This document shows positions 177-36,950 of a DNA stretch of 37,163 bases, in pieces (positions within the stretch are counted from its first letter, which is position 1; every line of letters starts with the position of its first letter). Position numbers and translations under genes: made by a program. Origin of the DNA: a candidate division WOR-3 bacterium (GTDB taxonomy: Bacteria > Hydrothermota > Tepidihabitantia > Tepidihabitantales > Tepidihabitantaceae); assembly GCA_016867815.1 (NCBI GenBank), contig VGIR01000024.1:1-37163 (forward strand), read 5' to 3'. The notes beneath the pieces were generated by a model. That model saw only the letters and a program-made list of their open reading frames with translations, was not told the DNA's origin and did not search any database.

Positions 177-204
177 TTGACGACCTTGGCATCAGGACTA
201 TACT
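177..204 (+). promoter_or_regulatory. Promoter of the PIN-domain gene
   Basis: TTGACG (177-182), a 16-nt spacer and TATACT (199-204). The GTG start at 210 follows after only 5 nt, so transcription should begin at or next to the start codon and the mRNA would be leaderless. No Shine-Dalgarno sequence is placed to serve this start. Confidence 0.7.
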
Positions 205-209
205 GATAC

Positions 210-698
210 GTGGCAACAGAACCGGCGCCCCTTCTCTACATCGAGACATCCGTGTTCGGCTTCTGCTTTGACGAGGAACCCCGCAACGTCCTGCGCCGCG
301 AGTCTGCACTGACACTGCTGCGGCAGATGCGTCTCGGCATCCTAGACGGCGGCACGTCGCCGGTCACATACCACGAGTTTGAGGGTGCGGCCGAGCCGCT
401 CCGTTCGAGGCTGCTGGAGTTGCTGAACGATGTACGGATACTGCCTGCCGATGATGAAGAAGTCGAACGACTCGCCCAGGTCTACTTGCGGGAGGGAATT
501 GTGCCGTCGAAGTTCGCCGACGATGCCAGGCACGTCGCCTACGCCACAATCTGTGGCGCCGGCGTTCTCGTGTCCCTCAACCTGCGGCACCTCGCCAACG
601 AGTGGACCGAGCGAAAGGTGGCGGCGGTGAACCAGCGTGAACGCTACGGTATCCTGCATATCAGGACTCCCGAAGAGGTACTCAGCTATGAAGGTTGA
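210..698 (+). CDS. PIN-domain protein, probable VapC-like ribonuclease toxin
   Basis: The 162-residue protein looks like a PIN-domain Mg-dependent endoribonuclease. It opens with a YIETSVF motif (acidic residue E12), has a central acidic position around E56 (TYHEF), and a C-terminal DDARHVAYA motif (D104/D105, H108) followed by LVSLNLRHLAN. This layout is typical of the PIN family used as type II toxins. The GTG start at 210 fits the promoter ending at 204 and leaves no 5' leader. The next ORF begins inside its last codons (ATG 688 versus stop 696-698), so the two are translationally coupled, as in toxin-antitoxin pairs, although here the putative toxin comes first. The fold call is fairly secure; the toxin role is inference from context. 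Confidence 0.75.
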   Translation: MATEPAPLLYIETSVFGFCFDEEPRNVLRRESALTLLRQMRLGILDGGTSPVTYHEFEGAAEPLRSRLLELLNDVRILPADDEEVERLAQVYLREGIVPSKFADDARHVAYATICGAGVLVSLNLRHLANEWTERKVAAVNQRERYGILHIRTPEEVLSYEG

Positions 699-879
699 AG
701 GAATGGACTGGATGGATTGGCTACACAAGGTCAGAGAGGAATCCGAGAAGGAACGGATTCGGCGCGGCATCGGTGGCGCGGAGTGGCTGAAGCAGATCCG
801 AGCCAGGGCTGAGGCCTTCAAGCGCGAACGCGCCGGCCGCGATACGCCGGCAGTCCACGACCGCAAGCCTGGTTCCTAG
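688..879 (+). CDS. Small charged protein, putative partner of the PIN protein
   Basis: This is a 63-residue, highly charged, helix-prone protein rich in Arg, Lys and Glu (for example KVREESEKERIRRG). ATG 688 overlaps the end of the PIN gene by 11 nt, and a longer in-frame extension back to 637 would lie entirely within that gene. Small basic and acidic proteins co-transcribed with PIN-domain proteins commonly act as antitoxins, and this role is plausible here. I do not recognise a named DNA-binding fold, so the function is inferred from position only. Confidence 0.5.
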   Translation: MKVEGMDWMDWLHKVREESEKERIRRGIGGAEWLKQIRARAEAFKRERAGRDTPAVHDRKPGS

Positions 880-953
880 CCAAGCCGGGGCGGACGGAGT
901 CCCTGAAGTCACGGTGACATGACGGTTCGGATTCCGAGCAGGCGACTGGCGTC

Positions 954-988
954 GCAGCCTCAAGCTTCAAGCCTCAAGCCGCAAGCCA
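954..988. repeat. Tandem heptamer array (CAAGCNN)
   Basis: Four or five degenerate 7-nt units read caagctt, caagcct, caagccg, caagcca. The array includes 975-987, an exact copy of the 13-mer at 88-100 on the far side of the PIN gene pair. Confidence 0.65.
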
Positions 989-1094
989 GTTTCACCCCAA
1001 GCCCCGCACCTTAGGGGCTTCCGCCCCTCAAGGCGGTGTACGCGACTTCCTTTGGTCGTCGCACGTGCACCTGTCACCCCGTTGGGGTGAAACT
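988..1094. repeat. Long nested inverted repeat (13-nt perfect arms)
   Basis: agtttcaccccaa (988-1000) and its exact reverse complement (1082-1094) enclose 81 nt. Inside lies a second stem, aggggc/gcccct around 1013-1028, flanked by partly complementary cacctt and aaggcggtg. No ORF of note is inside. It could be a structured RNA, a small palindromic mobile element, or a terminator or boundary. It lies about 60 nt upstream of the TIR promoter. Confidence 0.5.
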
Positions 1095-1151
1095 CGCCGC
1101 AACGCCGTAGCTAGCTAAAGCCGACACACCCCCATCCTGGGCGTCCGCGGC

Positions 1152-1180
1152 TTGACAAGCTCGGCGGGCATTCCTACAAT
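1152..1180 (+). promoter_or_regulatory. Strong promoter upstream of the TIR gene
   Basis: TTGACA (1152-1157), a 17-nt spacer and TACAAT (1175-1180), close to the sigma-70 consensus. The predicted start of transcription falls at about 1187, which is an ATG opening a 24-codon mini-ORF. Confidence 0.75.
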
Positions 1181-1186
1181 CCGGTG

Positions 1187-1261
1187 ATGGAACATGACGG
1201 CAGATGTCTGCTCCAGGGCGGCGGCGCACTGCTGTCTTCTTCTGACAGGAGGCCGAGATGA
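1187..1261 (+). CDS. Leaderless 24-codon upstream ORF coupled to the TIR gene
   Basis: ATG 1187 lies 6 nt after the -10 box, so it should sit at the very 5' end of the transcript. The frame (starting MEHDGRCL, ending DRRPR) stays open for 24 codons and stops at TGA 1259-1261. That stop overlaps the ATG of the TIR gene (ATGA). The AGGAGG serving the TIR gene (1247-1252) lies inside its last codons. The arrangement suggests translational coupling or a leader-peptide control. The peptide has no recognisable similarity, so it may matter only as a translated leader. Confidence 0.45.
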   Translation: MEHDGRCLLQGGGALLSSSDRRPR

Positions 1262-2277: not shown

Positions 2278-2305
2278 TTGACTTTCCGGTCTGCCCGGTG
2301 AGAAT
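2278..2305 (+). promoter_or_regulatory. Promoter of the lptE-like/rlmD/amidohydrolase operon
   Basis: TTGACT (2278-2283), a 16-nt spacer and GAGAAT (2300-2305, four of six consensus bases). GTG 2312 follows after 6 nt, again giving a leaderless layout. Confidence 0.5.
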
Positions 2306-2311
2306 CGTAGC

Positions 2312-2791
2312 GTGCGTGGATTCGCACTAGGCATACTGTTGCTCGCCGGCTGCTGCGGCTATTCGACCCGCTCGCTGCTGCCGTCACACCTCAAAGCCGT
2401 GGCGGTACTGCCGGCGGCGAACACAACGACGCAGCCGGGCCTGGCTGAGGCGCTCACCGATTCGCTGGCCGCGGCGTTCACGGCCGACCGGACACTGCGG
2501 GTGACGAACACGGAAGCAGCCGACCTGGTCGTGAGCACGACTGTCTCGAACTACAGCCGGACGGCATCTTCCTACACGGGCGACTCGGTGCAGGCCGTGT
2601 CCGCGTACGAAGTGAGTGTCAGCGCCCAGGTAGACGTACGGGACCAGACACGAAATGAGCAGTTCTACAAAGGGACCGCCTCGGCCCGGGTCAGCTACGA
2701 CCCGAATGCGAAGACCGAAGAGCAGGCGGCGGCGGAGGCGATCAGGAAGCTGGCTTCGGAGATCGTGCGCCAGGTGCAGATTACATGGTAG
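2312..2791 (+). CDS. LptE-like lipoprotein
   Basis: A 159-residue exported lipoprotein. The first 14 residues form a signal peptide ending in a lipobox (LLLAGC, C14). The mature start, CGYSTRSLLPSHLKAVAVLP followed by N-T-T-T-Q-P-G-L, matches the opening of LptE-family proteins, the outer-membrane partner of LptD in lipopolysaccharide assembly. The predicted strands (VVSTTVSNY, YEVSVSAQVDVRD) and the closing helix also fit. GTG 2312 is chosen because the lipobox follows directly and the promoter abuts it. It overlaps the next gene by 7 nt. The LptF/LptG genes in this window support an Lpt role. Other lipoproteins of unknown function share the opening pattern, so the call is by resemblance. 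Confidence 0.65.
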   Translation: MRGFALGILLLAGCCGYSTRSLLPSHLKAVAVLPAANTTTQPGLAEALTDSLAAAFTADRTLRVTNTEAADLVVSTTVSNYSRTASSYTGDSVQAVSAYEVSVSAQVDVRDQTRNEQFYKGTASARVSYDPNAKTEEQAAAEAIRKLASEIVRQVQITW

Positions 2792-9251: not shown

Positions 9252-10486
9252 GATTCCGCACCTCTCATCCGGAAGAGCGATTTCTCATAGAAGGCGCGCA
9301 GAAACAACTCGGTGACCGGCAGCACGAGGATGAGGTTCGGCAGCCACATCCCCACGAAAGGTGACAGCCTGCCCGATTCGGCAAGGTTCTCGCCGGCGAG
9401 AAGCAGGACGTAGAAGACCGCGAAGAAGATGAGCCCGATGATGAAGCCGGTACCAACCCCCCCGCGTCGGAGCAGCAATCCGACGGGTGCTCCGAAGAGC
9501 ACGAAGAAGAATGCCGAGAAAGCCAGCGAGAGTCGCTTCTGCAGCTCTACCTGGTAGCGCGCCATCTCCAGGTTTTTGTACCTGAAGCGGGACTTCATCT
9601 CGTCGTACTTCAGCTTGTCCGGCTCGCCGGCACCGGCCTTGCGTTCGGCCTCGCCCGTCTTCTCCTTCAGGTCCAGAGCTTCCGTGCCGAGCTGCTTCAT
9701 CGTGGCCGCAAGCTGCGGCAAGAGCATCTCTTCGTTGCTGCGGTACTCGCGATCCCGCCGGACAAGGTCATCGTCCATGGCGACATTGATGACGTGTTTC
9801 TTGAACAGAACCCGCCGATAGGTGCTGGTGTCCACCAACTCGTGCATCTCTCCGTCAAACAGGGTCATGATCATGTAGGCATCGTCGGCTGTGTACGATA
9901 TGTCGCCGAGCGGCGCCGTGACGAAGCCGGGCGTGCCCTTGCGGGCTCCGGTTGCGAAGATGGTCACGTTTCTGACCGTAGAGCGACGTTCATCAATCGC
10001 TCCGATGTAGATCATGTAGCCGGCGAAATCGTCCATGAACTGACCCTCGCGAATCCTCATCGCCGGACGCTTTCGCGCCACATCAGTGAGCAGGTTTCTC
10101 ACCCGGTGCTGGGCCTCCGGTACGACAAAGCCATTGAAGCCAATCATCGCGGCCAGCAGCAGCAGGCAGGCGAACATGATCGGCGTGAACAAGCGGATCG
10201 TCCGGATACCGGCGGCCCTGATCACGCGGACTTCGTTGTCCTGTGCCATTCTTCCGAACGATATGACCCCGGCGATCAGGCTGCCCAGCGGCGCACAGAT
10301 CGACACCACGAATGGCAGGGAGAGCAGCGCGACCTCGGACACCACTGTGACGGCGACGCCCTTGCGCACCAGCATGTCGGCCAGCAGGAAGAGGCGATCC
10401 ATCAGCAGTACGAATGTCAGAATGAGGATGGCGAGGAAGAACGGCGGAACGAACTGCCTCAGCGCGTAGCGCTGGAGTAGCTTCAC
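9248..10486 (-). CDS. lptF: LptF-like permease (YjgP/YjgQ family)
   Basis: A 412-residue partner of the adjacent LptG-like protein, with the same three-helix, periplasmic domain, three-helix plan. The start LLQRYALRQFVPPFFLAI and the coupling-helix segment NEVRVIRAAGIRTIRLF are typical. The periplasmic domain is longer than usual, with a charged insert near residues 265-315 (DLKEKTGEAERKAGAGEPDK), probably helical. Together with LptB it powers lipopolysaccharide export. GTG 10486 is 6 nt downstream of a TATCAT -10 box, so it heads a leaderless operon lptF-lptG-hydrolase. No lptB, lptC or lptD lies in this window. Confidence 0.85.
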   Translation of the reverse strand: MKLLQRYALRQFVPPFFLAILILTFVLLMDRLFLLADMLVRKGVAVTVVSEVALLSLPFVVSICAPLGSLIAGVISFGRMAQDNEVRVIRAAGIRTIRLFTPIMFACLLLLAAMIGFNGFVVPEAQHRVRNLLTDVARKRPAMRIREGQFMDDFAGYMIYIGAIDERRSTVRNVTIFATGARKGTPGFVTAPLGDISYTADDAYMIMTLFDGEMHELVDTSTYRRVLFKKHVINVAMDDDLVRRDREYRSNEEMLLPQLAATMKQLGTEALDLKEKTGEAERKAGAGEPDKLKYDEMKSRFRYKNLEMARYQVELQKRLSLAFSAFFFVLFGAPVGLLLRRGGVGTGFIIGLIFFAVFYVLLLAGENLAESGRLSPFVGMWLPNLILVLPVTELFLRAFYEKSLFRMRGAES

Positions 10487-10492
10487 CGGCTG

Positions 10493-10521
10493 ATGATAGC
10501 GCCGTGCCGACCCGAAGTCAA
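10493..10521 (-). promoter_or_regulatory. Promoter of the lptFG operon
   Basis: Read on the minus strand: TTGACT (10521-10516), a 17-nt spacer and TATCAT (10498-10493). The lptF GTG (10486) follows after 6 nt. Confidence 0.6.
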
Positions 10522-11744: not shown

Positions 11745-13629
11745 TGTTCTCCTCCTTGATTTGTGCGAGTGCTGACTCGACGGTAACCGCGCCGAGATTG
11801 CCCTTGCCGTGCCGGCGGACCGACACGGTGCCCTGGGCGGCCTCGCGACCGCCGACTACGAGCATGAAGGGGATCTTCTGGCGTTCGGCTTCACTGACTT
11901 TCTGGCTAATCTTATCAGACTTCAGGTCGATTTCAACTCTTATCCCGATGGCCTGCAACTTCCGTCCTACCTCCTGCGCGTAGCCGTTCTCGGCGTCGGT
12001 CACCGGCAGTACGCGGGCCTGGACCGGCGCGAGCCAGACCGGGAAGTCACCGGCATAGTGCTCGACCAATATCCCCATGAAACGTTCGATACCGCCCAGG
12101 ACGGTGCGATGGACGAGATACACCGGGTGGTGCTGCCCGTCCTGTCCCATGTAGTAGAGGTTGAACCGCGGCCCTTCGTTGAAGTCGAACTGGCAGGTCG
12201 GGCACTGCCACTCGCGGTCGAGAGAGTCGAGCAGCTTGATGTCGATCTTCGGCCCGTAGAAGACGGCCTCGCCCTCGGCCCGGTGGTAGGGCAGGCCGAT
12301 GCGCTCAAGCGCGCGTACCAGCGACTGCTCGCCCAGATTCCACTGCTCGTCGGTGCCGAGGTACTTACCCAGGTTCTTCGGGTCCCGCACCGACAGGTCG
12401 ACCTTGAACTTCTCGAACCCGAACGCCCGGAGCATCTTGACCGACAGGCTGACCACACCGAAGACCTCGTCCTCGACCTGCTCCGGTGTACAAAAAATGT
12501 GAGCGTCGTCCTGAGTGAAACCGCGGACGCGCATCATGCCGTGGAGTACGCCCGACCTTTCGCGACGATAGACTGTCCCCCACTCACCCATACGCAGGGG
12601 CAGGTCGCGATAAGAATGCACCTTGGTCCGGTAGATGAGCATGTGGCCCGGGCAGTTCATCGGCTTCAGGACGTACTGCTCCTTCTCGACTTCCATCAGG
12701 TACATGTTCTCGGCGTAGTAGTCGAGGTGACCTGACGTCTGCCACAGCCCGGCGCGGGCTATGTGCGGAGTCAAGACCAACTGGTACCCGGCGGCGAGAT
12801 GCTCCTTTTCCCAGTACTGCTGTATCAGGCGTCGGACGGTAGCACCCTTGGGGTGCCAGAACGCCAGCCCGGCCCCGGCTTCCTCGTGGAAGCTGAACAG
12901 GTCGAGAGCCGGTCCGAGCTTGCGATGGTCCCGGCGCCTGGCTTCTTCCAGCCGGTCCAGGTGCTCCTTGAGCAGTTCTTTGGACGGAAAGGCAATGCCA
13001 TAGACGCGCGACAGCATCCGGTTCTTCTCGTCCGCGTGCCAGTACGCGCCCGCAACCGAAAGCAACTTCACGGCCTTGATCTTGCCGGTACTCGTGACGT
13101 GAGGTCCGCGACAGAGATCGACGAAGTCGCCCTGCTCGTAGACCGAGATGGTCTCATCGGGTATGCCCTCAATCAGCTCGAGCTTGTACTTCTCGTCCCG
13201 CGCCCGGAACAGATCCTCTGCCTCTTTGCGCGGCAGGAACTTGTGGACGATGGGTATGCGCTGCTTGGCGAGTTCGTACATCCGTTCTTCGATCCTGGCC
13301 AAGTCGGTCTCGGTGAAAGGCTTCTCGACGTCGAAATCGTAGTAGAAGCCTTCGGGGACGGCCGGCCCGATGGTCACCTGGGCGTCGGGGTACAACTGTT
13401 TGATCGCCTGTGCCATCAGGTGAGAGGCGGAATGCCAGTATACTTCTCTCCCCTGCTCCGAGTCGAAGGTAACTGCTTCGACCCTGGCGTCCTGCTCGAG
13501 TCGACTGGTCAGGTCGACCAGCCGACCGTCAACAGTGGCCGCAATCGCGTTCTGGTCGTTCAAGACCTGGCCAACGGCCATTCCCGGCTCAAGTTGCCGA
13601 GTTTCGCCACTTACGGTCACGTTTATCAC
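11731..13629 (-). CDS. thrS: Threonyl-tRNA synthetase
   Basis: A full-length class II synthetase (632 residues) that charges tRNA-Thr. The N-terminal TGS domain (1-60) is followed by the editing domain with the HxxxH motif (H66, H70 in WHSASHLMAQ) and the DLCRGPHV box. The catalytic core shows motif 1 around LWQTSGHLDYY, the zinc-site MNCPGHMLIYR, motif 2 (YRRERSGVLHGMMRVRGFTQ) and motif 3 (GGIERFMGILVEHY). A C-terminal anticodon-binding domain follows. GTG 13629 begins right at the TGS fold and 6 nt after a TATGAT box, so the operon mRNA thrS-infC-rpmI-rplT should be leaderless. The classic E. coli operator leader that ThrRS binds is therefore absent. Confidence 0.97.
   Translation of the reverse strand: MINVTVSGETRQLEPGMAVGQVLNDQNAIAATVDGRLVDLTSRLEQDARVEAVTFDSEQGREVYWHSASHLMAQAIKQLYPDAQVTIGPAVPEGFYYDFDVEKPFTETDLARIEERMYELAKQRIPIVHKFLPRKEAEDLFRARDEKYKLELIEGIPDETISVYEQGDFVDLCRGPHVTSTGKIKAVKLLSVAGAYWHADEKNRMLSRVYGIAFPSKELLKEHLDRLEEARRRDHRKLGPALDLFSFHEEAGAGLAFWHPKGATVRRLIQQYWEKEHLAAGYQLVLTPHIARAGLWQTSGHLDYYAENMYLMEVEKEQYVLKPMNCPGHMLIYRTKVHSYRDLPLRMGEWGTVYRRERSGVLHGMMRVRGFTQDDAHIFCTPEQVEDEVFGVVSLSVKMLRAFGFEKFKVDLSVRDPKNLGKYLGTDEQWNLGEQSLVRALERIGLPYHRAEGEAVFYGPKIDIKLLDSLDREWQCPTCQFDFNEGPRFNLYYMGQDGQHHPVYLVHRTVLGGIERFMGILVEHYAGDFPVWLAPVQARVLPVTDAENGYAQEVGRKLQAIGIRVEIDLKSDKISQKVSEAERQKIPFMLVVGGREAAQGTVSVRRHGKGNLGAVTVESALAQIKEENNVPG
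11751..11757 (-). promoter_or_regulatory. Shine-Dalgarno of infC inside the thrS 3' end
   Basis: AAGGAGG on the minus strand, coding for part of IKEEN at the ThrRS C-terminus. It lies 6 nt before the inferred ACG codon and decides the infC start. Confidence 0.75.
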
Positions 13630-13635
13630 GGTGCA

Positions 13636-13663
13636 ATCATAGCGAGACTCGTGCGAGTGTCAA
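13636..13663 (-). promoter_or_regulatory. Promoter of thrS-infC-rpmI-rplT
   Basis: Minus strand TTGACA (13663-13658), a 16-nt spacer and TATGAT (13641-13636), then 6 nt to the GTG of thrS. Confidence 0.75.
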
Positions 13664-13811: not shown

Positions 13812-13839
13812 TTGACCGATGGGCGCAGTGGGCTACAAT
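13812..13839 (+). promoter_or_regulatory. Promoter of the ispF operon
   Basis: TTGACC (13812-13817), a 16-nt spacer and TACAAT (13834-13839). The TTG start proposed for ispF is at 13848, 8 nt downstream. Confidence 0.7.
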
Positions 13840-13847
13840 CATCGCAC

Positions 13848-14420
13848 TTGAACCCTCGTTTGTCCAACCGGGGTCGCCGCAACCAACCAAAGTACCGCAT
13901 CGGCTTCGGCTTCGACGCCCACGAACTTGTCTCGGGCCGGCGACTTATGCTCGGCGGCGTTCACATCCTTTCCAGGCTCGGCTTGCGCGGCCACTCGGAC
14001 GCGGACGTACTGCTCCACGCCCTGACGGACGCTCTTCTTGGCGCGCTGGCCCTACCTGACATCGGAACGCTTTTCCCGGACACCGACGCAAGGTGGAGGG
14101 ATGCCGCAAGCGAGCTGATGCTGAAGGAAGCCGATCGGCGAGCAAGGGCAGCGGGCTACCGGCTGGTGAACGCGGACTGTGTGCTGGTCTGTGACCAACC
14201 GAAGCTCCAACCGTACTGCCTCGCTGTGCGTGAGAGCATCGCTGCCATGCTCGGCGTGCCGCCCGACCGGATCGGCCTCAAAGCCAAGACCACCGAAGGT
14301 ATGCTCCTGGCGCTGAAACGCAAGAGCATCGCGGCGATGGCGGTTGTGCTCGTTGGCGCGGAACAGGCCCGGATGGTCGGACGACCCGGGTCGCTTCGCA
14401 AGCGTCTCCGCGGCCTATGA
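13848..14420 (+). CDS. ispF: 2-C-methyl-D-erythritol 2,4-cyclodiphosphate synthase
   Basis: This enzyme of the MEP isoprenoid pathway cyclises CDP-ME 2-phosphate to MEcPP. The 190-residue protein has the zinc-binding GFGFDAHEL motif near the N-terminus, GHSDADVLLHALTDALLGALALPDIG (written here in two overlapping parts: GHSDADVLLHAL and LGALALPDIG), the FPDTD box, and KAKTTEGM near the end. All match IspF. An ATG at 13737 would place the promoter inside the gene, so the TTG at 13848 (or TTG 13860) is preferred; about 17 residues still precede the conserved KYRIGFGFD. The C-terminal tail (VGAEQARMVGRPG) is somewhat longer than usual. The stop overlaps the rhomboid ATG. Confidence 0.92.
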   Translation: MNPRLSNRGRRNQPKYRIGFGFDAHELVSGRRLMLGGVHILSRLGLRGHSDADVLLHALTDALLGALALPDIGTLFPDTDARWRDAASELMLKEADRRARAAGYRLVNADCVLVCDQPKLQPYCLAVRESIAAMLGVPPDRIGLKAKTTEGMLLALKRKSIAAMAVVLVGAEQARMVGRPGSLRKRLRGL

Positions 14421-18338: not shown

Positions 18339-18345
18339 CGCTGCC

Positions 18346-18373
18346 AGTCTAGCTATCTCCGGTCTGCAGTCAA
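18346..18373 (-). promoter_or_regulatory. Promoter of the TPR gene
   Basis: Minus strand TTGACT (18373-18368), a 16-nt spacer and TAGACT (18351-18346), then 7 nt to the TTG at 18338. Confidence 0.6.
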
Positions 18374-20253: not shown

Positions 20254-20333
20254 GCTAGTTCCTCCTTGCGGTAAGGTGACCAATGAAAGCCGACAGCACT
20301 GCCTAGGCTGAGTCATCATTGCTTGACGCGCTA

Positions 20334-20361
20334 AGTCTACGCTACGACTGTCGGCTGTCAA
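20334..20361 (-). promoter_or_regulatory. Promoter of the surface-repeat gene
   Basis: Minus strand TTGACA (20361-20356), a 16-nt spacer and TAGACT (20339-20334). Unlike most promoters here it leaves a leader of about 70 nt with a good Shine-Dalgarno (AAGGAGG, 20267-20261). Its -10 is identical to that of the TPR gene just downstream. Confidence 0.6.
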
Positions 20362-20540: not shown

Positions 20541-22625
20541 CTACTTCTGGGCGGCTTCCTTCTCGCGCTTGGCTTCGTCAATTACCTTCTGCGCTACCTC
20601 GCGCGGCGTCTCTTCGTAGTGAGAGAACTCCATCGTGAAGAAGCCTCGACCCTGGGTCATGGAACGGAGGCTGTTTGAGTACTTGTACATCTCCGCCTGC
20701 GGTGCCTGGGCTTTGATGACCTGCAGGTTGCCCTGCACTTCCATGCCCATGATGCGTCCCCGGCGGGAGTTAAGGTCACCCATCACGTCGCCGGTATACT
20801 GGTCGGGCACGGTGACTTCGACGTTCATTATGGGCTCGAGCAGTATCAGTCCGGCTTTCTCGGCGCAGTTCCTGAAAGCAAGCTGACCGGCGAGCTTGAA
20901 GGCGATGTCCGAAGAATCAACGTCGTGGTAGGAGCCGTCGAAGACTACCGCCCGGATGTCCATCATGTGGTAGCCGGCGAGCACGCCCTTGGTCATCGTC
21001 TCGACGATGCCCTTCTCTATCGGCGGAATGAACTTGGTCGGAATCGACCCGCCCTTTATCTCGCTCACAAACTCAAACCCCTTGCCGCGCGGCACCGGCT
21101 CAAGCCGCAGCCAGCAGTCACCGAACTGACCCCGTCCGCCGGTCTGCTTCTTGTGCCTGCCCTGGGCCTCGCCCTTCTTCGATATCGTCTCGCGGTACGG
21201 GATTCGTGGTTTCACCAGGTCAACCGTAACGTCGAACCTGCGTTTCAGTCTGGCAACCAGCACGTCGAGGTGAAGCTCGCCCATGCCGTTGATGAGCTGC
21301 TGGCCGATTTCGGAGTTGAACTCGTAGGAGAAAGTCGGGTCCTCCTCGCGCAGCCGAGCGAGGCCGGTCGAGACCCGCTCCTCGTCTCCCTTGGTGTGCG
21401 GGACGATGGCGACTGAGATCGAAGGCCTTGGGAAGACGATTGGTGGCAAGCTGGCGGGTTGGCGCTTGTCGCAGAGCGTGTGGCCGGTGTGCGTCTCCTT
21501 AAGCTTGACCAGCGCGCCGATCATGCCGGTGGTCAGCTTGTTCACCTCGACCCGCTCCTTGCCCTTGACAACGTACATCTGATTGACCTTCTCTTCACGC
21601 TCGGTGTGAGTGTTCATCACAACCGCGCCCGCCTCAAGCTTGCCACGGAAGACGCGGACGAGGTTCATGTCGCCGACGTGAGCCTCGGAGACGGTCTTGA
21701 AGATGAAGGCGCAAACCGGGCCGTTCTCTTCGGGCTTCACCTCCAACACATCGGTCGTTCCGGGCCGGGTCGCGCCCAGCCCCGGCATGTCGAGCGGGCC
21801 GGGCAGCACGTCTACGGCGAGGTCAAGCAGCAGATCGACACCGACCTGGGCGAGGGCGTCGCCACCAACCAACGGATAGACGACACCGGCCGTGATGCCT
21901 TTTCTAACTGCGGCGCGCATCTCCTCCGGCGCGATCTTGCCGCCCTCGATGAACTTCTCCATCAGGGTCTCGTCGACCTCGGCCGCGGCCTCGACCAGCT
22001 TCTCCTTCCACTGGCTGATGGCGTCGGCCATGTCGGCCGGCACCGGAATCTCCTTGCGGACGCCGTTCTCGTAGCCGTACGCCTTGTCGTTCAAGAGGTC
22101 CACGACCCCTTTCAGGCCGGCCTCCTTGCCGATCGGCAGGAAGAGCGGCGTGACGCGGGTGCCGAACGCCCTGCGCAGGTCCTCGGCCGTGGCGTCAAAT
22201 GAAGTGCGTTCCTTGGTGAGCTTGTTGACGAAGACGGCGCGGGGCAGTTTCGCCTCATCGAGCCGTCGCCAGACCATCTCGGTCCCGACCTCGACCCCGG
22301 ACGAGGCATCGACGACTATGATGCCGTTGTCAATCGCGCGCACGCCGGATACGACGTTACCGAAGAAGTCGGCGTAGCCAGGGGTGTCGACCAGGGTGAC
22401 CAACGTATCTTTCCAGTCCCCATAGCCGAGCGAGAGGTTAATGGATATCTTGCGGCTGATCTCATCTTCGTCATAGTCCAGGAGCGACGTCCCCTCGGCC
22501 ACCGAGCCGAGCCGGGTGTTCTGCTTCATTGCGAGCAGAAGCGCCTCGCAGAGCGAGGTCTTGCCCGAACTGGCATGACCGAAGAGGCCTAGGTTGCGGA
22601 TCTTTTCCGCGCTGTATTCTATCAC
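20541..22625 (-). CDS. Elongation factor G-like GTPase (EF-G paralogue)
   Basis: A 694-residue protein with all five EF-G domains. Domain I has a P-loop (GHASSGKTS, 16-24) and a G3 motif DTPGYADF (80-87) with Tyr where EF-G and EF-Tu have the catalytic His. The G4 motif reads NKLT (134-137), so the Asp that reads the guanine ring in the NKxD consensus is Thr. Domain IV (GRGQFGDCWLRLEP) and domain V (PIMNVEVTVPDQYTGDVMGDLNSRRGRI) are normal; the latter is given here only by its ends, PIMNVEVTV and GDLNSRRGRI. It belongs to the EF-G-like group that sits beside the main FusA in many bacteria, with roles in recycling or unknown. GTG 22625 has AGGAGG 5 nt upstream. The promoter leaves about a 30-nt leader. 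Confidence 0.85.
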   Translation of the reverse strand: MIEYSAEKIRNLGLFGHASSGKTSLCEALLLAMKQNTRLGSVAEGTSLLDYDEDEISRKISINLSLGYGDWKDTLVTLVDTPGYADFFGNVVSGVRAIDNGIIVVDASSGVEVGTEMVWRRLDEAKLPRAVFVNKLTKERTSFDATAEDLRRAFGTRVTPLFLPIGKEAGLKGVVDLLNDKAYGYENGVRKEIPVPADMADAISQWKEKLVEAAAEVDETLMEKFIEGGKIAPEEMRAAVRKGITAGVVYPLVGGDALAQVGVDLLLDLAVDVLPGPLDMPGLGATRPGTTDVLEVKPEENGPVCAFIFKTVSEAHVGDMNLVRVFRGKLEAGAVVMNTHTEREEKVNQMYVVKGKERVEVNKLTTGMIGALVKLKETHTGHTLCDKRQPASLPPIVFPRPSISVAIVPHTKGDEERVSTGLARLREEDPTFSYEFNSEIGQQLINGMGELHLDVLVARLKRRFDVTVDLVKPRIPYRETISKKGEAQGRHKKQTGGRGQFGDCWLRLEPVPRGKGFEFVSEIKGGSIPTKFIPPIEKGIVETMTKGVLAGYHMMDIRAVVFDGSYHDVDSSDIAFKLAGQLAFRNCAEKAGLILLEPIMNVEVTVPDQYTGDVMGDLNSRRGRIMGMEVQGNLQVIKAQAPQAEMYKYSNSLRSMTQGRGFFTMEFSHYEETPREVAQKVIDEAKREKEAAQK

Positions 22626-22662
22626 GGGGTCCTCCTGAAAACTTGTCTAGGTGCTGCGCGGA

Positions 22663-22690
22663 ATCATAGCGAAGGAGTCAGGCAAGTCAA
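22663..22690 (-). promoter_or_regulatory. Promoter of the EF-G paralogue
   Basis: Minus strand TTGACT (22690-22685), a 16-nt spacer and TATGAT (22668-22663). It is divergent from the gcvT promoter. Confidence 0.7.
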
Positions 22691-22741: not shown

Positions 22742-22769
22742 TTGACTCCTAGTCCGCTTCTGATAAGAT
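22742..22769 (+). promoter_or_regulatory. Promoter of the glycine cleavage cluster
   Basis: TTGACT (22742-22747), a 16-nt spacer and TAAGAT (22764-22769). ATG 22778 follows after 8 nt without a Shine-Dalgarno, so a leaderless mRNA is expected. No glycine riboswitch can fit. Confidence 0.7.
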
Positions 22770-22777
22770 AGCCGCCC

Positions 22778-23878
22778 ATGCTCAAACTGACTCCGTTTCA
22801 CGATCGTCACGTGGCAGCCGGCGGCAAGATGGTCGACTTCGCGGGGTACGACCTGCCGGTCCAGTTCCACGGGATTATCCCGGAACACACCCGCGTGCGA
22901 TCCACCGTCGGCGTCTTCGACGTTTCCCACATGGGCCGGATCGAAGTCCGTGGCAAGGACGCCCTCGCCTTCATCAACCGGATGACGACGAACGACGCCG
23001 GCAAGCTGGCCGAGTATCAGGCCCAGTACTCGGTGCTCTGCTACCCGGATGGCGGCATCGTCGACGACCTCGTGGTCTACCGGCTGCCCGACTGCTATTT
23101 CCTGGTCGTGAACGGCGCAAACAACGAGAAGGATACTGCCTGGCTGCGCGAGCACCTGTCCGGCGACGTGCGGATGGATAACATCACCGACACGCAGGCC
23201 CAGCTCGCCATCCAGGGGCCAAAGGCCGAGGCGGTGATGCAGAAGATCTGCTCGATCCCGCTCGCGCCAATCGGCTTCTATTGGGCGGCCCATTGCGAGA
23301 TAGCGGGAGTGAAAGGGCTCGTGTCCCGCACCGGTTATACCGGCGAAGACGGATTCGAGGCATATTTCCCGGCCGCGAGCGCGTCGAGAGTCTGGGACGC
23401 CATCTTCGCTGCGGGCAAGGAATTCGACATCGAGCCCATCGGTCTTGGCGCCCGCGACACCCTGCGCATGGAAATGAAGATGGCCTTGTACGGCAACGAC
23501 ATCGACAAGACCACGAACCCGATTGAGGCCGGCCTGAGCTGGGTGGTGGCTTTGGATAAACCCGAGGGCTTCACCGGCTCAGACATCCTCAAGAGGGTCG
23601 AGGAAGAGAAGCCCACGCGCCGCCTGGTCTGTCTGGAGATGCAGGATAGGTCGATTGCCCGTCCCCACTACCAGATTCTCGCGCAGGGACAACCGGTCGG
23701 TACCGTGACGAGCGGCACGCTCTCCCCTTCACTCAATAAGGGCATCGCGCTCGGCTACGTGAAGCGCCAGCTCACCAAGGCCGGCACCGAGGTAGAGATC
23801 GACATTCGCGGCCGCCGCGCCGCCGCGCTCATCGTGAAACCGCCGTTCTACAAGAACGGATCCCACAGACCCAATTAG
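22778..23878 (+). CDS. gcvT: Aminomethyltransferase (glycine cleavage T protein)
   Basis: A 366-residue T protein that takes the aminomethyl group from lipoyl-H protein and, with tetrahydrofolate, releases ammonia and makes methylene-THF. The N-terminal TPFHDRHVAAGGKMVDFAGY, VGVFDVSHMGRIEV, the folate-site acidic residue in VKGLVSRTGYTGEDGFE, and GLGARDTLRMEMKMALYGND are typical of GcvT. The length is normal. First gene of the gcv cluster. Confidence 0.96.
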   Translation: MLKLTPFHDRHVAAGGKMVDFAGYDLPVQFHGIIPEHTRVRSTVGVFDVSHMGRIEVRGKDALAFINRMTTNDAGKLAEYQAQYSVLCYPDGGIVDDLVVYRLPDCYFLVVNGANNEKDTAWLREHLSGDVRMDNITDTQAQLAIQGPKAEAVMQKICSIPLAPIGFYWAAHCEIAGVKGLVSRTGYTGEDGFEAYFPAASASRVWDAIFAAGKEFDIEPIGLGARDTLRMEMKMALYGNDIDKTTNPIEAGLSWVVALDKPEGFTGSDILKRVEEEKPTRRLVCLEMQDRSIARPHYQILAQGQPVGTVTSGTLSPSLNKGIALGYVKRQLTKAGTEVEIDIRGRRAAALIVKPPFYKNGSHRPN

Positions 23879-30089: not shown

Positions 30090-30948
30090 CAAGCGTCCCT
30101 TGAACTTCGTCCTCTCCCTTGATGTAGCTCATCAAGGCCCGATGCCACGGTCTCAGTTCTTTGCCGAACCGGTGCTTGAATTCTCTATTCTCAAGCACCG
30201 AGTAGGCGGGGCGCGGGGCCTTGCGTGCGGCGGTAGCGGTATTGATCGGCGCGACCTCGCACTTCGCGTCCGTCAGCCTCACTATCTCGACCGCAAGATC
30301 GAACCACGAGCAGTGACCTGAATTGGTCAAGTGATAGATGCCGAAGTGCTTGGACTTGGCCACCTCCCAGAGCGGCCGGCAAAGGTCGCGTGCGTAGGTC
30401 GGCGACCCGACCTGGTCGCTAACGACTTCTATTCGCGGGACTTGTGAACACTTCTGACGGATAGTATCAACGAAGTTGCGGCCGTGCCTGCCGTACAGCC
30501 AGCTGGTCCTGACGACCAGGTGCTTGTGGCAGGTCTTGATTACTGCATTCTCCCCCATCAGCTTGGTCCGCCCATAGACCGAAAGCGGATTCGGCTTGTC
30601 TCCTTCGCGATAGGGACGATCGGTCCGGCCGTCGAAGACGTAGTCGGTCGAGACGTACACCAGCTTGCACCGCAGTTCTTCGGCTCCCAGAGCCACTGCC
30701 CATGCGCCCTGGAAGTTGATGGCGGTCGACCCGGCTACGTCGTCCTCGCAACCGTCCACATCAGTCCGGGCGGCAAGATGGAACACGACATCCGGCCCCA
30801 CCTGATGCATGCCGTTGATGGTCTTCTCTACATCGGTCACGTCGTGCTTCGGCAGATCCCAGCCGACGACTTCTTCGCTCTGATGCCGCAGGAACTCGAC
30901 CAACTCGGTCCCGAGCATGCCCTCTGCTCCGGTCACTAGGCAGCGCAC
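30061..30948 (-). CDS. rmlD: dTDP-4-dehydrorhamnose reductase (RmlD-like)
   Basis: A 295-residue short-chain dehydrogenase of the extended type. It reduces dTDP-4-keto-rhamnose to dTDP-L-rhamnose for surface polysaccharide. TGAEGMLG is the NAD(P) loop, followed by DVVFHLAARTDVDGCE, the STDYVFDG box, YGRTK (catalytic Y and K) and RTSWLYG. It lacks the other rml genes nearby. GTG 30948 opens right before CLVTGAEGMLG, with GGAG 6 nt upstream; an ATA/ATG-type start further up (31029) would overlap the promoter. The start is overlapped by a leaderless mini-ORF. Confidence 0.85.
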   Translation of the reverse strand: MRCLVTGAEGMLGTELVEFLRHQSEEVVGWDLPKHDVTDVEKTINGMHQVGPDVVFHLAARTDVDGCEDDVAGSTAINFQGAWAVALGAEELRCKLVYVSTDYVFDGRTDRPYREGDKPNPLSVYGRTKLMGENAVIKTCHKHLVVRTSWLYGRHGRNFVDTIRQKCSQVPRIEVVSDQVGSPTYARDLCRPLWEVAKSKHFGIYHLTNSGHCSWFDLAVEIVRLTDAKCEVAPINTATAARKAPRPAYSVLENREFKHRFGKELRPWHRALMSYIKGEDEVQGTLDEPRTEAGR

Positions 30949-30995
30949 GGCGTGCTCCAATCTGCAGTTCGGGTCGAACCGGGTGCGCGCTTCAT
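30936..30995 (-). CDS. Leaderless 19-codon upstream ORF overlapping the rmlD start
   Basis: ATG 30995 lies 6 nt after TACACT. The frame (MKRAPGST...) stays open for 19 codons and stops at TAG 30938-30936, 13 nt past the first base of the rmlD GTG (30948). The rmlD GGAG (30958-30955) is inside it. The layout repeats that of the TIR gene, and both suggest that a leaderless mini-ORF carries ribosomes onto a weakly initiated gene. Confidence 0.4.
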   Translation of the reverse strand: MKRAPGSTRTADWSTPCAA

Positions 30996-31001
30996 TGACT
31001 G

Positions 31002-31029
31002 AGTGTATCCCGAGCCTGCGCAGAATCAA
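31002..31029 (-). promoter_or_regulatory. Promoter of rmlD-nudix
   Basis: Minus strand TTGATT (31029-31024), a 16-nt spacer and TACACT (31007-31002), with the mini-ORF ATG 6 nt later. It is back to back with the yidD promoter, 12 nt apart. Confidence 0.55.
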
Positions 31030-31041: not shown

Positions 31042-31069
31042 TTGACTAGACCTGAGGAGGGACTATACT
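31042..31069 (+). promoter_or_regulatory. Promoter of the YidD-TPR gene pair
   Basis: TTGACT (31042-31047), a 16-nt spacer and TATACT (31064-31069), then 6 nt to the TTG start at 31076. A GAGGAGGG lies within the spacer and would not be transcribed. Confidence 0.7.
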
Positions 31070-31075
31070 GACCTC

Positions 31076-32323
31076 TTGCGAAGAGCAGTACTTCTTATCC
31101 TCTCTCTGATCGGCGCGTGCGTGGCCGGGTACGATGCTCTGTCGGTGTTCAGCGAGTGGATGATCGGCGGCTACAAGGCCGTCCTTTCGCCTCTGCAGGG
31201 CTCAAACGTCTGTAACTTCCACCCTACGTGCTCGCAATTCGCGCGAGGCGCGATCCGATCACGGGGATTCCTGCCGGGTGTACTCATCGGCGCGGACCGC
31301 TTGATGCGATGCAACACCCTTGCCTGGTCTTACTATGACACACACTACCGCGGAGACGTAGTTGGCGGGAGAATGCCTGACCCGGTCGAGAACCACATTG
31401 CGTGGCGCCCGCCACCGGGCGAACCAGGTCTCGTTCTCGTTGCACAGTCAGAAGGAACCAAGACGAAACCCGACGCGTCCAGTGCTCCCCGTCACCCGCC
31501 GGCTCCCAGCCTGGGTTTCGCCGACCATCTGTACTCCTCGGGCGACTACTATCAGGCGGCAGGCGAATACCTGAGAGTGAGATTCACCTCGGATTCGTCC
31601 GGCATTGGCAGCTATGCCGGGCTGATGGCGGGCGAGTCATACTTGCGGGCTGGAGATCTGGCGCAGGCGCGCCACGCGTTCGCCGACTTGAGCGCTCCCG
31701 CTGCGCAGGGTCTCACGCAGTACGGAGTCGCTCGCGCCGACTTTGCGGCGGCTGACTACGTCGGCACGCGAGCGGCCCTCGGCTCGATCACGTCGCCTGT
31801 TCTTGGCCGACAGGCCAAGGCACTCGAGGGCTGGACCTACTTCAGACAGCACCGGTTCGCTGAAGGTGCGTCAACGCTGGGCGCACTGGGGACCGACGAA
31901 CCGTCGCTGCAGCTCGCAACGATGGACGGGCATGACATCCGCCGCCGCTCGCGACTGGTGAGCACGCTGTTTTCTGTCATCGTGCCCGGCGCCGGCCAAC
32001 TCTACTCGGGCCGCGCCGGCGACGGGGCATATTCATTCCTAACCGTGGCTGGCACGGGACTGGTGACGTTGTGGTATGCGGCCGATCTGGCCCACCGTGA
32101 CCGCACCGGCGTCAAGGTGTCCATCTTCGGCGCTATCACCGCCCTGTTCTATGCCGGCAATGTCTACGGCGCCAACATCGCTGCCCGTGACCACAATCTG
32201 CTACAGGAACGCCGCTACGTTCAGCGTGCCGACTCCCTCTTTGAACTCATGTCGCTGGAGCCCGACTATCGCCCCCTGCTAGACTCTGTTCCACCCGACA
32301 TCGCCCCACCCGTCCGCGAATGA
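31076..32323 (+). CDS. YidD domain fused to TPR and C-terminal membrane domain
   Basis: 415 residues. The first about 95 form a YidD domain: an N-terminal helix (3-20), WMIGGYKAVLSPLQGSNVC, then FHPTCSQFARGAI (C46, C52) and DRLMRCN (C79). YidD normally is a free about 70-100 residue factor aiding YidC membrane insertion. A linker (about 95-140) leads to TPR-like helices (about 145-280; DHLYSSGDYYQAAGEYLRVR, DLAQARHAFADLS). Residues about 290-385 hold STLFSVIVPGAGQLYSGRAG and two or three membrane helices, like the DUF5683-type domain. So YidD is fused to a TPR/membrane module. The TTG start at 31076 abuts the promoter and begins the helix. Confidence 0.75.
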   Translation: MRRAVLLILSLIGACVAGYDALSVFSEWMIGGYKAVLSPLQGSNVCNFHPTCSQFARGAIRSRGFLPGVLIGADRLMRCNTLAWSYYDTHYRGDVVGGRMPDPVENHIAWRPPPGEPGLVLVAQSEGTKTKPDASSAPRHPPAPSLGFADHLYSSGDYYQAAGEYLRVRFTSDSSGIGSYAGLMAGESYLRAGDLAQARHAFADLSAPAAQGLTQYGVARADFAAADYVGTRAALGSITSPVLGRQAKALEGWTYFRQHRFAEGASTLGALGTDEPSLQLATMDGHDIRRRSRLVSTLFSVIVPGAGQLYSGRAGDGAYSFLTVAGTGLVTLWYAADLAHRDRTGVKVSIFGAITALFYAGNVYGANIAARDHNLLQERRYVQRADSLFELMSLEPDYRPLLDSVPPDIAPPVRE

Positions 32324-33279: not shown

Positions 33280-33282
33280 GAC

Positions 33283-33825: not shown

Positions 33826-33831
33826 GGCGAG

Positions 33832-34365: not shown

Positions 34366-34374
34366 TAGTCCTCC

Positions 34375-36591
34375 TTATTGCTTCACGGCCACATACTCAT
34401 TGGTCTCGCGGAACGGGACAAAACGCTCACCGCCGCCGGTGTAGAAGCGCGGAAAGAACTCGACGTACTGCAGACGAAGCGAATGTACAAAGGCCCCCAG
34501 CACGTTCACCGCGATGTTGTAGGTGTGACCCACTACCAGCACGATAAGCGCACCGATGATGCCGACCACCGGAATCGGCAGGAGCATCCAAGCTATCACG
34601 TTGATAGCCACGGCAACGCCACCGGTACACATGCCCAGGGCCATCAGCCTGATGTAGGACAACACCACGCCGATGTACCCGGTCGCGCCGTACAGCGCGT
34701 ACCCGCCCCAAGCGAACTTGGCGAGCATCGATGCACTCGATGGCGACAAGAGGAAGAACAGCGCACCGGTCAGGCTCGGGATCCAGGCCGGCAGCACACC
34801 GGCGAAGTAGAGCACCACTGCGGCCGCGGCAAGTGCGCCCAGCCCCAGCGGTACCGGCTTGAACTTCCGCGTACGGATCGTACTAACGACGGCATGGACG
34901 AACATGCCAAGGTGAAGAAACCAGAAAGCCCACTTCGCCAGACTGAACCCGGCCGGCAGCCAGCCGAGCCTGGCCCCGACGAAAACCAGGAACGCGGAGA
35001 AGAGCGCGAACCAGAACGTCTGGCTGAACGCGGTCTCCCGGCTGCGCTGGGTGAAGACGATTATCGCGGCAACCGAAAGGAGAATAGTGAGCATCAGCGC
35101 TGTCATCGCCCAGTCCGGCAGGGACTTCGCGAGCACGAACCTCGCGGTCAAGGCATTCAGCGACAGGAACCACGGCAACTGCCCGAGCAGCCCGCCCCCG
35201 AAATCGCGGACGCGCAGGCAATCGACGATCTCAAACGCGATGCCGGCAATCATCTGCAGGTAGCCGAGCCCAATCGACAGTATGAAGAACTTCATCGGGT
35301 CCTTGACCGGGTCGAACCACATCAACCGGTTCTTGAACACCTGGAACCAGCTTACACCCAGCCGGTCCGGGATGTCGCCGAACCAGCCGCCGACCAGCGC
35401 CCCGGCCGGTATCGTCAGTATCGCGCCGATCAGGATAATGCCTAGCAGCTTGTTGCCCATGCCCATCTTCCGCATCATGAAGTAGGCGAGCACCGCCACC
35501 ACGATCCCGTATCCGGCATCGGTCAGACAGAGAGCAAAGAAAACTCCGAAGAACGGGGCGATGATCCAGGTCGGGTCCAGCTCGTTGGGACGCGGCATGC
35601 TGAAGAGCTCGAGCACCATTTCGAACGGCCGGAACACGGGCCGGTTAACGAGCGCCACCGGCGTTTCCTCGCCTTCGGCCGGATGCACCCCTGTCATGGC
35701 CGCCGCCCCACTCTCGGTCACGAGTCTCTCCAGCCGTCCGAGATCGCGAGTGCGTACCCATCCGTGAATCAGCGCTACGGTCTCAGTTTTGGCAAACGCG
35801 GCGGCCGTCGCGCGCCTCAACTCATCGTTAGTGAGGGAGTCGGCCGCGACTCTGAGTTCGGGCAGGGCCGAACCGAGCTGCTCAATCTCAGCACCGATTG
35901 ACTGCAGACGCCCCCGGGCTGCGGCAGCATCTTTGGCAAGGTCGGCCAGCGCGTCCTGCGGCTTGCTCTTCACGTTGTGCAGGTCGATTGTCACGAAGCG
36001 GTTCTCGCTCAGGGTTCTTGCGACCCGGTCAGCCGCCTCGGGTAGTGCCGCTACCAGCACGCGTACCTCATCGCCGGCACGACCCACGGTCTCGACCGCG
36101 CCCGGCCCGTCCTTCAAAACCTCCTGCACAGTACGGAGGTCGTCTTCGACCGGGAAGCAGCCGAACGACACAACCGCGGTCTTGAGCCCGTACATCTCGG
36201 CCGGCGAATAGTCGAGTCCCGACCAGGGCTCGAGCCTTGCCCTCTCGGCCGTAATCGCCTGAACCCGGGCTTCCAGCTCAGCCTGCTCGTGGGTCAGGCT
36301 CGTGAGCCGTTCTACAGCCGAGGAATGGTCGAAGTTCGCAGCGAGCAGGTCATACTCCTGTCGAGACAGCTCCTTGCGGCCACCGGCGTGCTTCCTCTTC
36401 TTCACTCTGGTCGTGAGGGTTTCGATTGCCTGAATGACACGCCGGCTGTCTGCGTTGACCTGGCTCTCCGGCGTTGCCGATTCGGTCTGCGTGATGTGCA
36501 TCACGCCCAGACGTTGGAGCTTCTTGAGGAACGGATCGCGGCCCTCCTGATGGACCGCAACGAGAACGCGGGAGACTTTCTCTACTGCCAC
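34375..36591 (-). CDS. atpI: V-type ATP synthase subunit I
   Basis: 738 residues. The N-terminal half (1-about 370) is the cytoplasmic stalk-contact domain with coiled segments; it starts AVEKVSRVLVAVHQEGRDPF and includes a KKRKHAGGRKELSR basic patch. The C-terminal half has about seven to eight membrane helices, with FFGVFFALCLTDAGYGIVVA, a lysine/arginine-rich step, the DPTWIIAPF lead-in and, near the end, IRLMALGMCTGGVAVAIN, which contains the arginine that faces the rotor carboxylate. The subunit forms the ion half-channels. GTG 36591 overlaps the subunit G/H gene by 10 nt. Confidence 0.9.
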   Translation of the reverse strand: MAVEKVSRVLVAVHQEGRDPFLKKLQRLGVMHITQTESATPESQVNADSRRVIQAIETLTTRVKKRKHAGGRKELSRQEYDLLAANFDHSSAVERLTSLTHEQAELEARVQAITAERARLEPWSGLDYSPAEMYGLKTAVVSFGCFPVEDDLRTVQEVLKDGPGAVETVGRAGDEVRVLVAALPEAADRVARTLSENRFVTIDLHNVKSKPQDALADLAKDAAAARGRLQSIGAEIEQLGSALPELRVAADSLTNDELRRATAAAFAKTETVALIHGWVRTRDLGRLERLVTESGAAAMTGVHPAEGEETPVALVNRPVFRPFEMVLELFSMPRPNELDPTWIIAPFFGVFFALCLTDAGYGIVVAVLAYFMMRKMGMGNKLLGIILIGAILTIPAGALVGGWFGDIPDRLGVSWFQVFKNRLMWFDPVKDPMKFFILSIGLGYLQMIAGIAFEIVDCLRVRDFGGGLLGQLPWFLSLNALTARFVLAKSLPDWAMTALMLTILLSVAAIIVFTQRSRETAFSQTFWFALFSAFLVFVGARLGWLPAGFSLAKWAFWFLHLGMFVHAVVSTIRTRKFKPVPLGLGALAAAAVVLYFAGVLPAWIPSLTGALFFLLSPSSASMLAKFAWGGYALYGATGYIGVVLSYIRLMALGMCTGGVAVAINVIAWMLLPIPVVGIIGALIVLVVGHTYNIAVNVLGAFVHSLRLQYVEFFPRFYTGGGERFVPFRETNEYVAVKQ

Positions 36592-36911
36592 TGTCGGCGC
36601 AGGTTCTCGACCAACAGGTCAGCCGCCTTGTCCACCCTGTCTTCAGAAACGACCTTGATGGAGCTGGCAGCCGCCTCGGCCTCGGCCTTCGCTTTGGACT
36701 GAATGCCGGCGGCTTCCGCCCTGGCCCGCTCGAGAGCAGCATCGTGTTCCCGGCGGCAGCGCTCCCGGGCCTCGGTGATTGCCGCCGCGGCCTCCTGCTC
36801 AGCCTGCGCAATGGCCTGGCGACGCTGCTCTTCAGCCTGTTTGATCGCCTCATCCGCCTCGACTTCGGCGGCACGGATAAGGCCGATGATATCCTGAGAT
36901 TGACCTGACAT
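36582..36911 (-). CDS. V-type ATP synthase subunit G/H (peripheral stalk)
   Basis: A 109-residue, almost fully helical protein (EVEADEAIKQAEEQRRQAI, ARERCRREHDAALERARAEA) that forms the long coiled coil with subunit E in the peripheral stalk. Ala/Glu/Arg content and length fit G/H. ATG 36911 is 11 nt after the -10 box at 36923, giving at most a very short leader. First gene of the operon G/H-I-K-E. Confidence 0.8.
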   Translation of the reverse strand: MSGQSQDIIGLIRAAEVEADEAIKQAEEQRRQAIAQAEQEAAAAITEARERCRREHDAALERARAEAAGIQSKAKAEAEAAASSIKVVSEDRVDKAADLLVENLRRQWQ

Positions 36912-36922
36912 AAAGGACTCTC

Positions 36923-36950
36923 ATGCTATTGTGGCAACCCCGAAAGTCAA
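36923..36950 (-). promoter_or_regulatory. Promoter of the V-ATPase G/H-I-K-E operon
   Basis: Minus strand TTGACT (36950-36945), a 16-nt spacer and TAGCAT (36928-36923), then 11 nt to ATG 36911. The leader is about 4 nt, too short for a Shine-Dalgarno. Confidence 0.65.

Follow-up and report, generated by a model that had tools for sequence, protein, structure and literature searches.

Promoters and start codons in the window

The stretch analysed here (the window; 37,163 nucleotides, nt) corresponds to contig 24 of a candidate division WOR-3 bacterium, whose draft genome comprises 3.37 Mb divided among 215 contigs. The placement is based on the threonyl-tRNA synthetase (ThrRS) of the window, for which the closest named relatives are WOR-3 records: a lake-sediment bin (AlinenSedimentsD0_bin-1181), with an 87% partial match, and the isolate SKW181, with 73% over the full length. 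At eleven of its genes and mini-open reading frames (mini-ORFs) a -35/-10 promoter lies close against the start codon, an arrangement which a sequence-only reading of the window had interpreted as leaderless transcription, proposed as the default. The observation is real. Direct reading of the sequence shows nine of them to consist of TTGA(C/T)-N16/17-TANNNT with the start codon at d=5-8, where d is the number of bases between the -10 box and the start codon; the two exceptions, lptE with a non-TA -10 box and a V-ATPase gene at d=11, are weaker than had been claimed.

On the forward strand, the PIN gene promoter (177..212) is composed of TTGACG (177-182), a 16-nt spacer and TATACT (199-204), with GTG 210 at d=5; no Pfam family was matched by the PIN protein. 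The TIR mini-ORF (1152..1261) starts at ATG 1187, d=6 behind TTGACA (1152-1157), a 17-nt spacer and TACAAT (1175-1180). The lptE site (2278..2314) is a weak one, TTGACT-16-GAGAAT with GTG 2312 at d=6. In the ispF promoter (13812..13850), TTGACC (13812-13817) and TACAAT (13834-13839) are 16 nt apart, and TTG 13848, preceded by a conserved AC, follows at d=8. The gcvT promoter (22742..22780) consists of TTGACT (22742-22747), a 16-nt spacer and TAAGAT (22764-22769), with ATG 22778 at d=8, and that of the YidD fusion (31042..31078) of TTGACT, a 16-nt spacer and TATACT (31064-31069), with TTG 31076 at d=6.

On the reverse strand, lptF (10484..10521) is headed by TTGACT (10521-10516), a 17-nt spacer and TATCAT (10498-10493), with GTG 10486 at d=6, and thrS (13627..13663) by TTGACA (13663-13658), a 16-nt spacer and TATGAT (13641-13636), with GTG 13629 likewise at d=6. 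A TPR gene (18336..18373) begins at TTG 18338, d=7 behind TTGACT-16-TAGACT. The rmlD mini-ORF (30936..31029) has a weaker -35 box, TTGATT, and, after a spacer of 16 nt, TACACT with ATG 30995 at d=6. The V-ATPase G/H-like gene (36909..36950; TTGACT, TAGCAT, ATG 36911) probably has a very short leader, for which a length of about 4 nt would fit d=11; its Pfam V-ATPase G hits are below the cut-offs. Pfam support was obtained among the window proteins for LptE, LptF/LptG (LptF_LptG for lptF), IspF (YgbB, the match beginning at residue 16), TPR, EF-G, GcvT, YidD, TIR, RmlD and ThrRS.

Eleven instances of the strict promoter pattern, TTGAC-N15..18-TANNNT, are present in the window, and 9 of them have a start codon 4-11 nt downstream (the V-ATPase site is included, the rmlD mini-ORF and lptE are not). 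By comparison, 100 order-2 Markov simulations yielded a mean of 0.97 patterns, 0.25 of them with a start codon (maxima 3 and 2).

Two genes provide a contrast, both on the reverse strand. In the EF-G paralogue (22623..22690) 37 nt separate the -10 box from GTG 22625 and include AGGAGG, and in the repeat gene (20251..20361) TTGACA-16-TAGACT is followed by AAGGAGG ahead of GTG 20253 (start by hand count). These had been named as the only genes with a leader and a Shine-Dalgarno (SD) site; both are confirmed as leadered, but the statement omits the AGGAGG of the TIR gene, located inside the mini-ORF, as well as the operon-internal genes, about half of which (100/198 at gaps of <25 nt, in 1.017 Mb of the genome) carry SD sites.

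Genome-wide signal

Start codons in each gene's own frame were counted by their distance behind strict promoters, with the other two frames serving as a control. Genes were called by a purpose-written caller (order-4 periodic coding model), and those too near to the stretch ends were excluded (620/627 kept in this count, 759/766 in that of the TTG start codons). In an 837-kb sample of the genome, 82% of which is coding, 73 of 620 genes had an in-frame start 4-9 nt behind a strict promoter, the shifted frames giving 3 and 11. The same count gave 40/294 (shifted frames 1 and 3) in G006, a member of the same family with a GC content of 50%, 37/295 (1 and 6) in G031, of the same class (GC 49%), and 1/148 (0 and 0) in 200 kb of Escherichia coli K-12. 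Tested against the pooled shifted frames (Fisher), the excess is significant at p 3e-23, 4e-16 and 1e-12 for our genome, G006 and G031, respectively. The in-frame peak, which the sequence-only reading had anticipated, is at 5-9 nt.

The 837-kb sample was also used for the sorting of promoters, while the later tables cover 1.017 Mb of the 3.37 Mb. When genes of our genome were divided by context (1.017 Mb, strict and relaxed -35), the arrangement was found in 41/144 divergent genes (control 5.5), in 43/251 genes with a same-strand gap of at least 100 nt (control 4), in 10/134 at gaps of 25-99 nt (control 0.5), and in only 1/198 at gaps of <25 nt (control 0); for this last class G006 gave 4/120 (control 1.5) and G031 3/101 (control 1). 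The signal is concentrated in genes expected to require a separate promoter, the heads of transcription units, and not in operon interiors.

Among promoter-proximal genes of our genome, 84/395 were classed as leaderless (control 9.5) and 163 as SD-led (control 27). The corresponding values are 34/116 (control 2.5) and 43 (control 10) in G006, and 36/135 (control 5.5) and 55 (control 10) in G031; E. coli displays no excess of leaderless promoter-proximal genes (3/80 vs control 2.0). Of the 311 strict promoters in the 837-kb sample, 79 were sorted as leaderless and 39 as intragenic; among the remainder, 112 are followed by a gene start at no more than 200 nt and 81 are not. Leaderless transcription as the default mode is rejected by these counts, 84 leaderless against 163 SD-led genes and 79 leaderless against 112 leadered promoters. 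Judged from the sequence, the putative leaderless or near-leaderless starts are genome-wide and conserved in the lineage, and form a large minority mode. In other bacteria leaderless genes are given as about 20-25% of all genes in mycobacteria and Streptomyces coelicolor and about 60% in Deinococcus deserti (figures from a section of PMC9031893).

Two genomes were sampled outside the class. A weak excess was seen among the promoter-proximal genes of G049 (9/58 vs control 4.5). In G065, which belongs to another class of the phylum, the excess is clear (21/49 vs 5.5), but this genome is AT-rich (GC 30%), and most of the resolved thrS loci outside the class do not look leaderless. As a separate observation, contigs L004, L011, L012, L015 and L020 of our genome have their first 127-221 bases in common, with a promoter-like site near the end; this is probably a repeat that breaks the assembly.

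Conservation in relatives

The thrS loci compared are those returned by searches or fetched, a part of the class genomes; the genus set consists of four genomes and the AlinenSedimentsD0_bin-1181 record, taken as being of the same genus. The promoter-start geometry is kept in 5/5 genus loci, 11/11 family loci and 15/15 resolved class loci (one further class locus was unaligned). Across these 31 loci d=6 in 28 and d=7 in 3, and both the 16-nt spacer and TTGACA are found in 30. The start codon is GTG in the organism's own family and ATG in the remaining class loci.

Layout comparisons for the other sites exclude PIN and lptE, and ispF was unresolved in G006 and G007. The lptF geometry is also present in G001, G004 and G006. 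For gcvT, d is likewise 8 in G002 and G003 and is 10 in G006; the TPR orthologue in G003 has an identical geometry with an ATG start, and the YidD fusion retains its TTG in G002, at d=8. The EF-G paralogue has retained its SD leader in G002, G003, G006 and G007.

Start codons and their spacing

In the 837-kb sample, leaderless starts are made up of 37 ATG, 31 GTG and 9 TTG codons, and leadered starts of 74, 32 and 6. The two main codons differ in their distance from the -10 box: mean d for GTG and ATG is 6.3 vs 7.9 in our genome (p 4e-6), 6.2 vs 7.9 in G006 (p 0.004) and 5.2 vs 6.7 in G031 (p 0.02). GTG was found at d=5-6 in 23/32, 9/11 and 6/6 cases, respectively, and ATG at d=7-10 in 38/48 cases in our genome and 20/31 in G006; in G031, 22/34 ATG starts are at d=5-6. 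As both GTG and ATG occur at d=6-7 in thrS, the difference is a tendency and not a rule. It could mean that the polymerase can begin on A across a broader span of positions than on G, or that a short run of bases ahead of AUG is tolerated.

The sequence-only reading had included GTG and TTG starts, as well as core genes, in the arrangement. For GTG and for thrS this stands; for TTG a small in-frame excess is present in our genome (9 vs 1 and 2 in the shifted frames) and in G006 (5 vs 0 and 1), with none in G031 (1 vs 1 and 4). The TTG of ispF was compared in five genus genomes, our own included. All have TACAAT-N6-AC-TTGA, and the extension that follows from the TTG is variable in length, open and in frame. 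An A that is constant in all five, at the seventh base behind the -10 box and two ahead of the TTG, occupies the position where a transcription start would be expected. The open frame may be viewed as indirect support for translation from a 5'-terminal codon. If the upstream TTG is the start, window positions 13848-13892 encode an N-terminal extension of IspF that varies within the genus in both length and sequence.

Promoter-adjacent mini-ORFs

In our genome the promoters of non-leaderless genes still show extra ATG and GTG codons at 5-9 nt; no such extra codons are seen in G006 or G031. Mini-ORFs were defined as having 4-70 codons and a stop in a 4-base overlap (ATGA, GTGA or TTGA) with the start of the next gene. 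In counts that contain nested starts and doubled promoters, mini-ORFs of this kind were found in 17/51 cases at the promoter vs 31/331 cases further downstream in our genome (p 2e-5), and in 7/36 vs 16/326 in G031 (p 0.004); there is no excess in G006 (1/26 vs 9/256).

The TIR mini-ORF is 24 codons long, and its TGA overlaps the TIR gene's ATG 1258 as ATGA. Of 10 homologous loci, paralogues included, 7 have a strict promoter placed 6-11 nt ahead of a start codon; the peptides are unrelated, and in 4 of these loci the mini-ORF ends at most 25 nt from the gene start. The product of the TIR gene itself (window 1258-2202) carries TIR_2 and ThsB-like TIR domains by Pfam, has several diverged relatives in the genus, and is possibly related to defence. 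The rmlD mini-ORF has 19 codons, and its TAG (30938-30936) overlaps rmlD, the start of which is read as GTG 30948. By-eye reading of G002 reveals an equivalent arrangement, at d=7 and with 15 codons, although the peptide it encodes is unrelated; this comparison points to GTG 30948, and TTG 31029 was rejected as the rmlD start.

The downstream genes of four mini-ORFs were followed in relatives, and two of the four mini-ORFs (contigs 15 and 5) are not conserved as such. The one on contig 15 is absent from the genus orthologues displayed. That on contig 5 (L006:7296-7433) has 45 codons and is situated ahead of a response-regulator-like gene. The tail of this mini-ORF is similar to the C-terminal end of a histidine kinase, longer in G005, and the mini-ORF is perhaps what remains of a gene, retained through coupling. 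On contig 31 (L222:14291-14344) a promoter-adjacent GTG mini-ORF, VRNR..P.PVY..GG, precedes the gene of a VIT/VWA-domain protein. Relatives share the promoter, the GTG and a peptide of similar sequence (VRNR...) at this gene; the overlap is 4 bases in our genome and G003 and 1 base in G002 and G005. By sequence reading G004 has the same mini-ORF, but with GATTAT as the -10 box, and in G001 it is fused in frame.

Translation machinery and the glycine riboswitch

The 3' end of the 16S rRNA is CACCTCCTTT, with an intact anti-SD, and bS21 is present in 39 of 41 WOR-3 genomes; the same search found no bS21 match in the Thermus, Deinobacterium and Corynebacterium control genomes. Loss of bS21 and loss of the anti-SD are accordingly both rejected as the cause of leaderless use, and their presence argues against the loss of either as a precondition. 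The rpsA (bS1) model has a strong match in 40/41 genomes (E 9e-77 or better; G026 only 4e-14). It scores above the cut-off in 9/41, and matches weakly in all 14 control genomes, archaea included. From these matches, loss of bS1 in the lineage appears unlikely.

No Rfam model was matched in the window at gathering score. The sequence-only reading had deduced that a glycine riboswitch could not exist here, and as far as tested this holds: with stricter filters, RF00504 was found in 0/41 lineage genomes, while 2/14 control genomes matched. With none in 41 genomes, the absence looks like a lineage trait and not only a consequence of the missing gcvT leader.

Interpretation and alternatives

One explanation accommodates the promoter-start geometry, the in-frame excess, its concentration at promoter-proximal genes, the conservation of thrS in the class loci examined and the intact anti-SD. 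In a large minority of unit-heading genes, a housekeeping promoter very probably abuts the start codon and would give rise to leaderless or near-leaderless mRNAs. In this scheme strong -35/-10 promoters of the housekeeping sigma factor would adjoin the start codons of genes heading transcription units, and transcription by RNA polymerase would begin with the codon itself or slightly ahead of it. Ribosomes would load onto the 5' ends of the resulting mRNAs without the need for SD pairing. The remaining first genes, and many operon-internal ones, would rely on SD sites, and some of the SD-led genes would be coupled to a preceding promoter-adjacent mini-ORF, the stop of which overlaps their start.

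Several observations weigh against this explanation. Three window sites, lptE, V-ATPase and the rmlD mini-ORF, deviate from the strict form. Of six thrS loci within the order, two are leaderless, three have d=11-13 and one is of the SD type; 22 loci were examined in other classes of the phylum, 9 of them unaligned, and the 13 resolved ones comprise 2 that look leaderless (one doubtful), 1 near, 5 SD and 5 neither. The SD contrast, which in itself speaks for the explanation (an SD of at least 4 nt precedes 8/77 leaderless starts vs 71/112 leadered ones), is partly geometric, as the -10 box sits where the SD would be. The D. deserti plasmid, intended as a positive control, gave only 1/85 genes with the strict -35 and 5/85 with the relaxed one; a clear peak emerged there only when TANNNT was the sole requirement (16/63 vs 1 and 4), a looser test which is less discriminating (11/80 vs 3 and 11 in E. 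coli). In addition, 39 of 91 motif starts in our genome differ from the start that our own gene caller chose by coding score alone, 34 of them lying upstream of it. This last discrepancy would agree with an account in which the boxes arise by chance in the AT-richer DNA upstream and translation truly begins further down, behind SD sites. Such an account may apply to single sites such as lptE; as a general explanation it is highly improbable, in view of the shifted-frame controls, the window simulations, the near absence of the arrangement at tight operon genes of our genome, and the conservation of thrS.

Another possible explanation is that short intergenic regions simply bring promoters and starts together, with no special role for leaderless translation. 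The genome is indeed gene-dense, but the peak at 5-9 nt is in frame and strong at divergent genes, and longer-leader promoters of the same genome mostly precede an SD (the 71/112 above); we consider this scenario very unlikely. An alternative nearer to the proposed scheme is that a leader of 1-5 nt, tolerated by the ribosome, remains on the majority of transcripts, strict leaderlessness being exceptional. The predominance of ATG at d=7-10 in our genome and G006, which is beyond the usual +1, would agree with this, as would the invariant A two bases before the ispF TTG, the order members with thrS at d=11-13 and the V-ATPase gene at d=11. The prevalence of GTG at d=5-6 in all three genomes, that of ATG at the same distance in G031, and d=6 in 28 of the 31 genus, family and class thrS loci argue in the opposite direction, and we regard a general short leader as possible, though on the whole unlikely.

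Relation to known systems

Leaderless expression is well known, and what is added here is the lineage, the maintenance of the arrangement at thrS, the strength of the -35 boxes and a spacing that varies with the start codon. The sequence-only reading had placed established leaderless mRNAs in Deinococcus-Thermus and Actinobacteria, which is too narrow: of 953 bacterial genomes, 207, spread over many groups, were found to have leaderless genes (a section of Zheng 2011, PMC3160421), and 21.6% of bacterial species are predicted to be leaderless users (a GeneMarkS-2 figure cited in a passage of PMC9581028). The sequence signature in the relevant parts of these surveys is the same as in WOR-3, and the Zheng 2011 section does not name the lineage. 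No earlier report of leaderless genes in WOR-3/Stahlbacteria was found in the open-licence literature, to which the search was confined, subscription journals and preprints lying outside it.

Deinococcus-Thermus shares with WOR-3 a TANNNT about 6-7 nt before the start and the occurrence of SD-led genes in the same genome (sections of PMC12340547 and PMC3160421). The WOR-3 sites differ in having a clear TTGAC(A/T) -35 box, mostly at 16 nt, whereas the D. deserti plasmid peak is clear only when no -35 is required. Mycobacteria, as portrayed in part of PMC4633059, resemble WOR-3 in their ATG and GTG starts. They also have mini-ORFs with RTGA overlaps above expectation, and a linkage that is sometimes kept without the peptide; in WOR-3 an excess of putatively coupled mini-ORFs of this type is present in two of three genomes (our own and G031, not G006). 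The same part of that source describes a distant lineage in which ATG or GTG is necessary, whereas some WOR-3 genes have TTG starts with conserved geometry.

In practical terms, gene prediction that relies on SD sites may put starts in the wrong place in WOR-3 genomes and overlook mini-ORFs next to promoters. The difference in spacing between GTG and ATG constitutes a testable prediction on how strictly each codon must be 5'-terminal. We tentatively suggest, as a scenario somewhat less probable than even, that start codon choice in WOR-3 depends on the exact distance to the -10 box: GUG functions only as a true 5' end (5-6 nt), AUG is tolerated a few bases inward, and UUG is used where the polymerase starts at an A two bases ahead. 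Together with overlap-coupled mini-ORFs feeding SD-led genes, these rules would make up a form of leaderless initiation with an origin separate from those in Actinobacteria and Deinococcus, its host lineage having retained bS21 and an intact anti-SD. Under the main explanation given above, an uncultured lineage with genes for lipopolysaccharide export would join the bacteria with substantial leaderless expression, with the trait held at thrS across the class loci examined.

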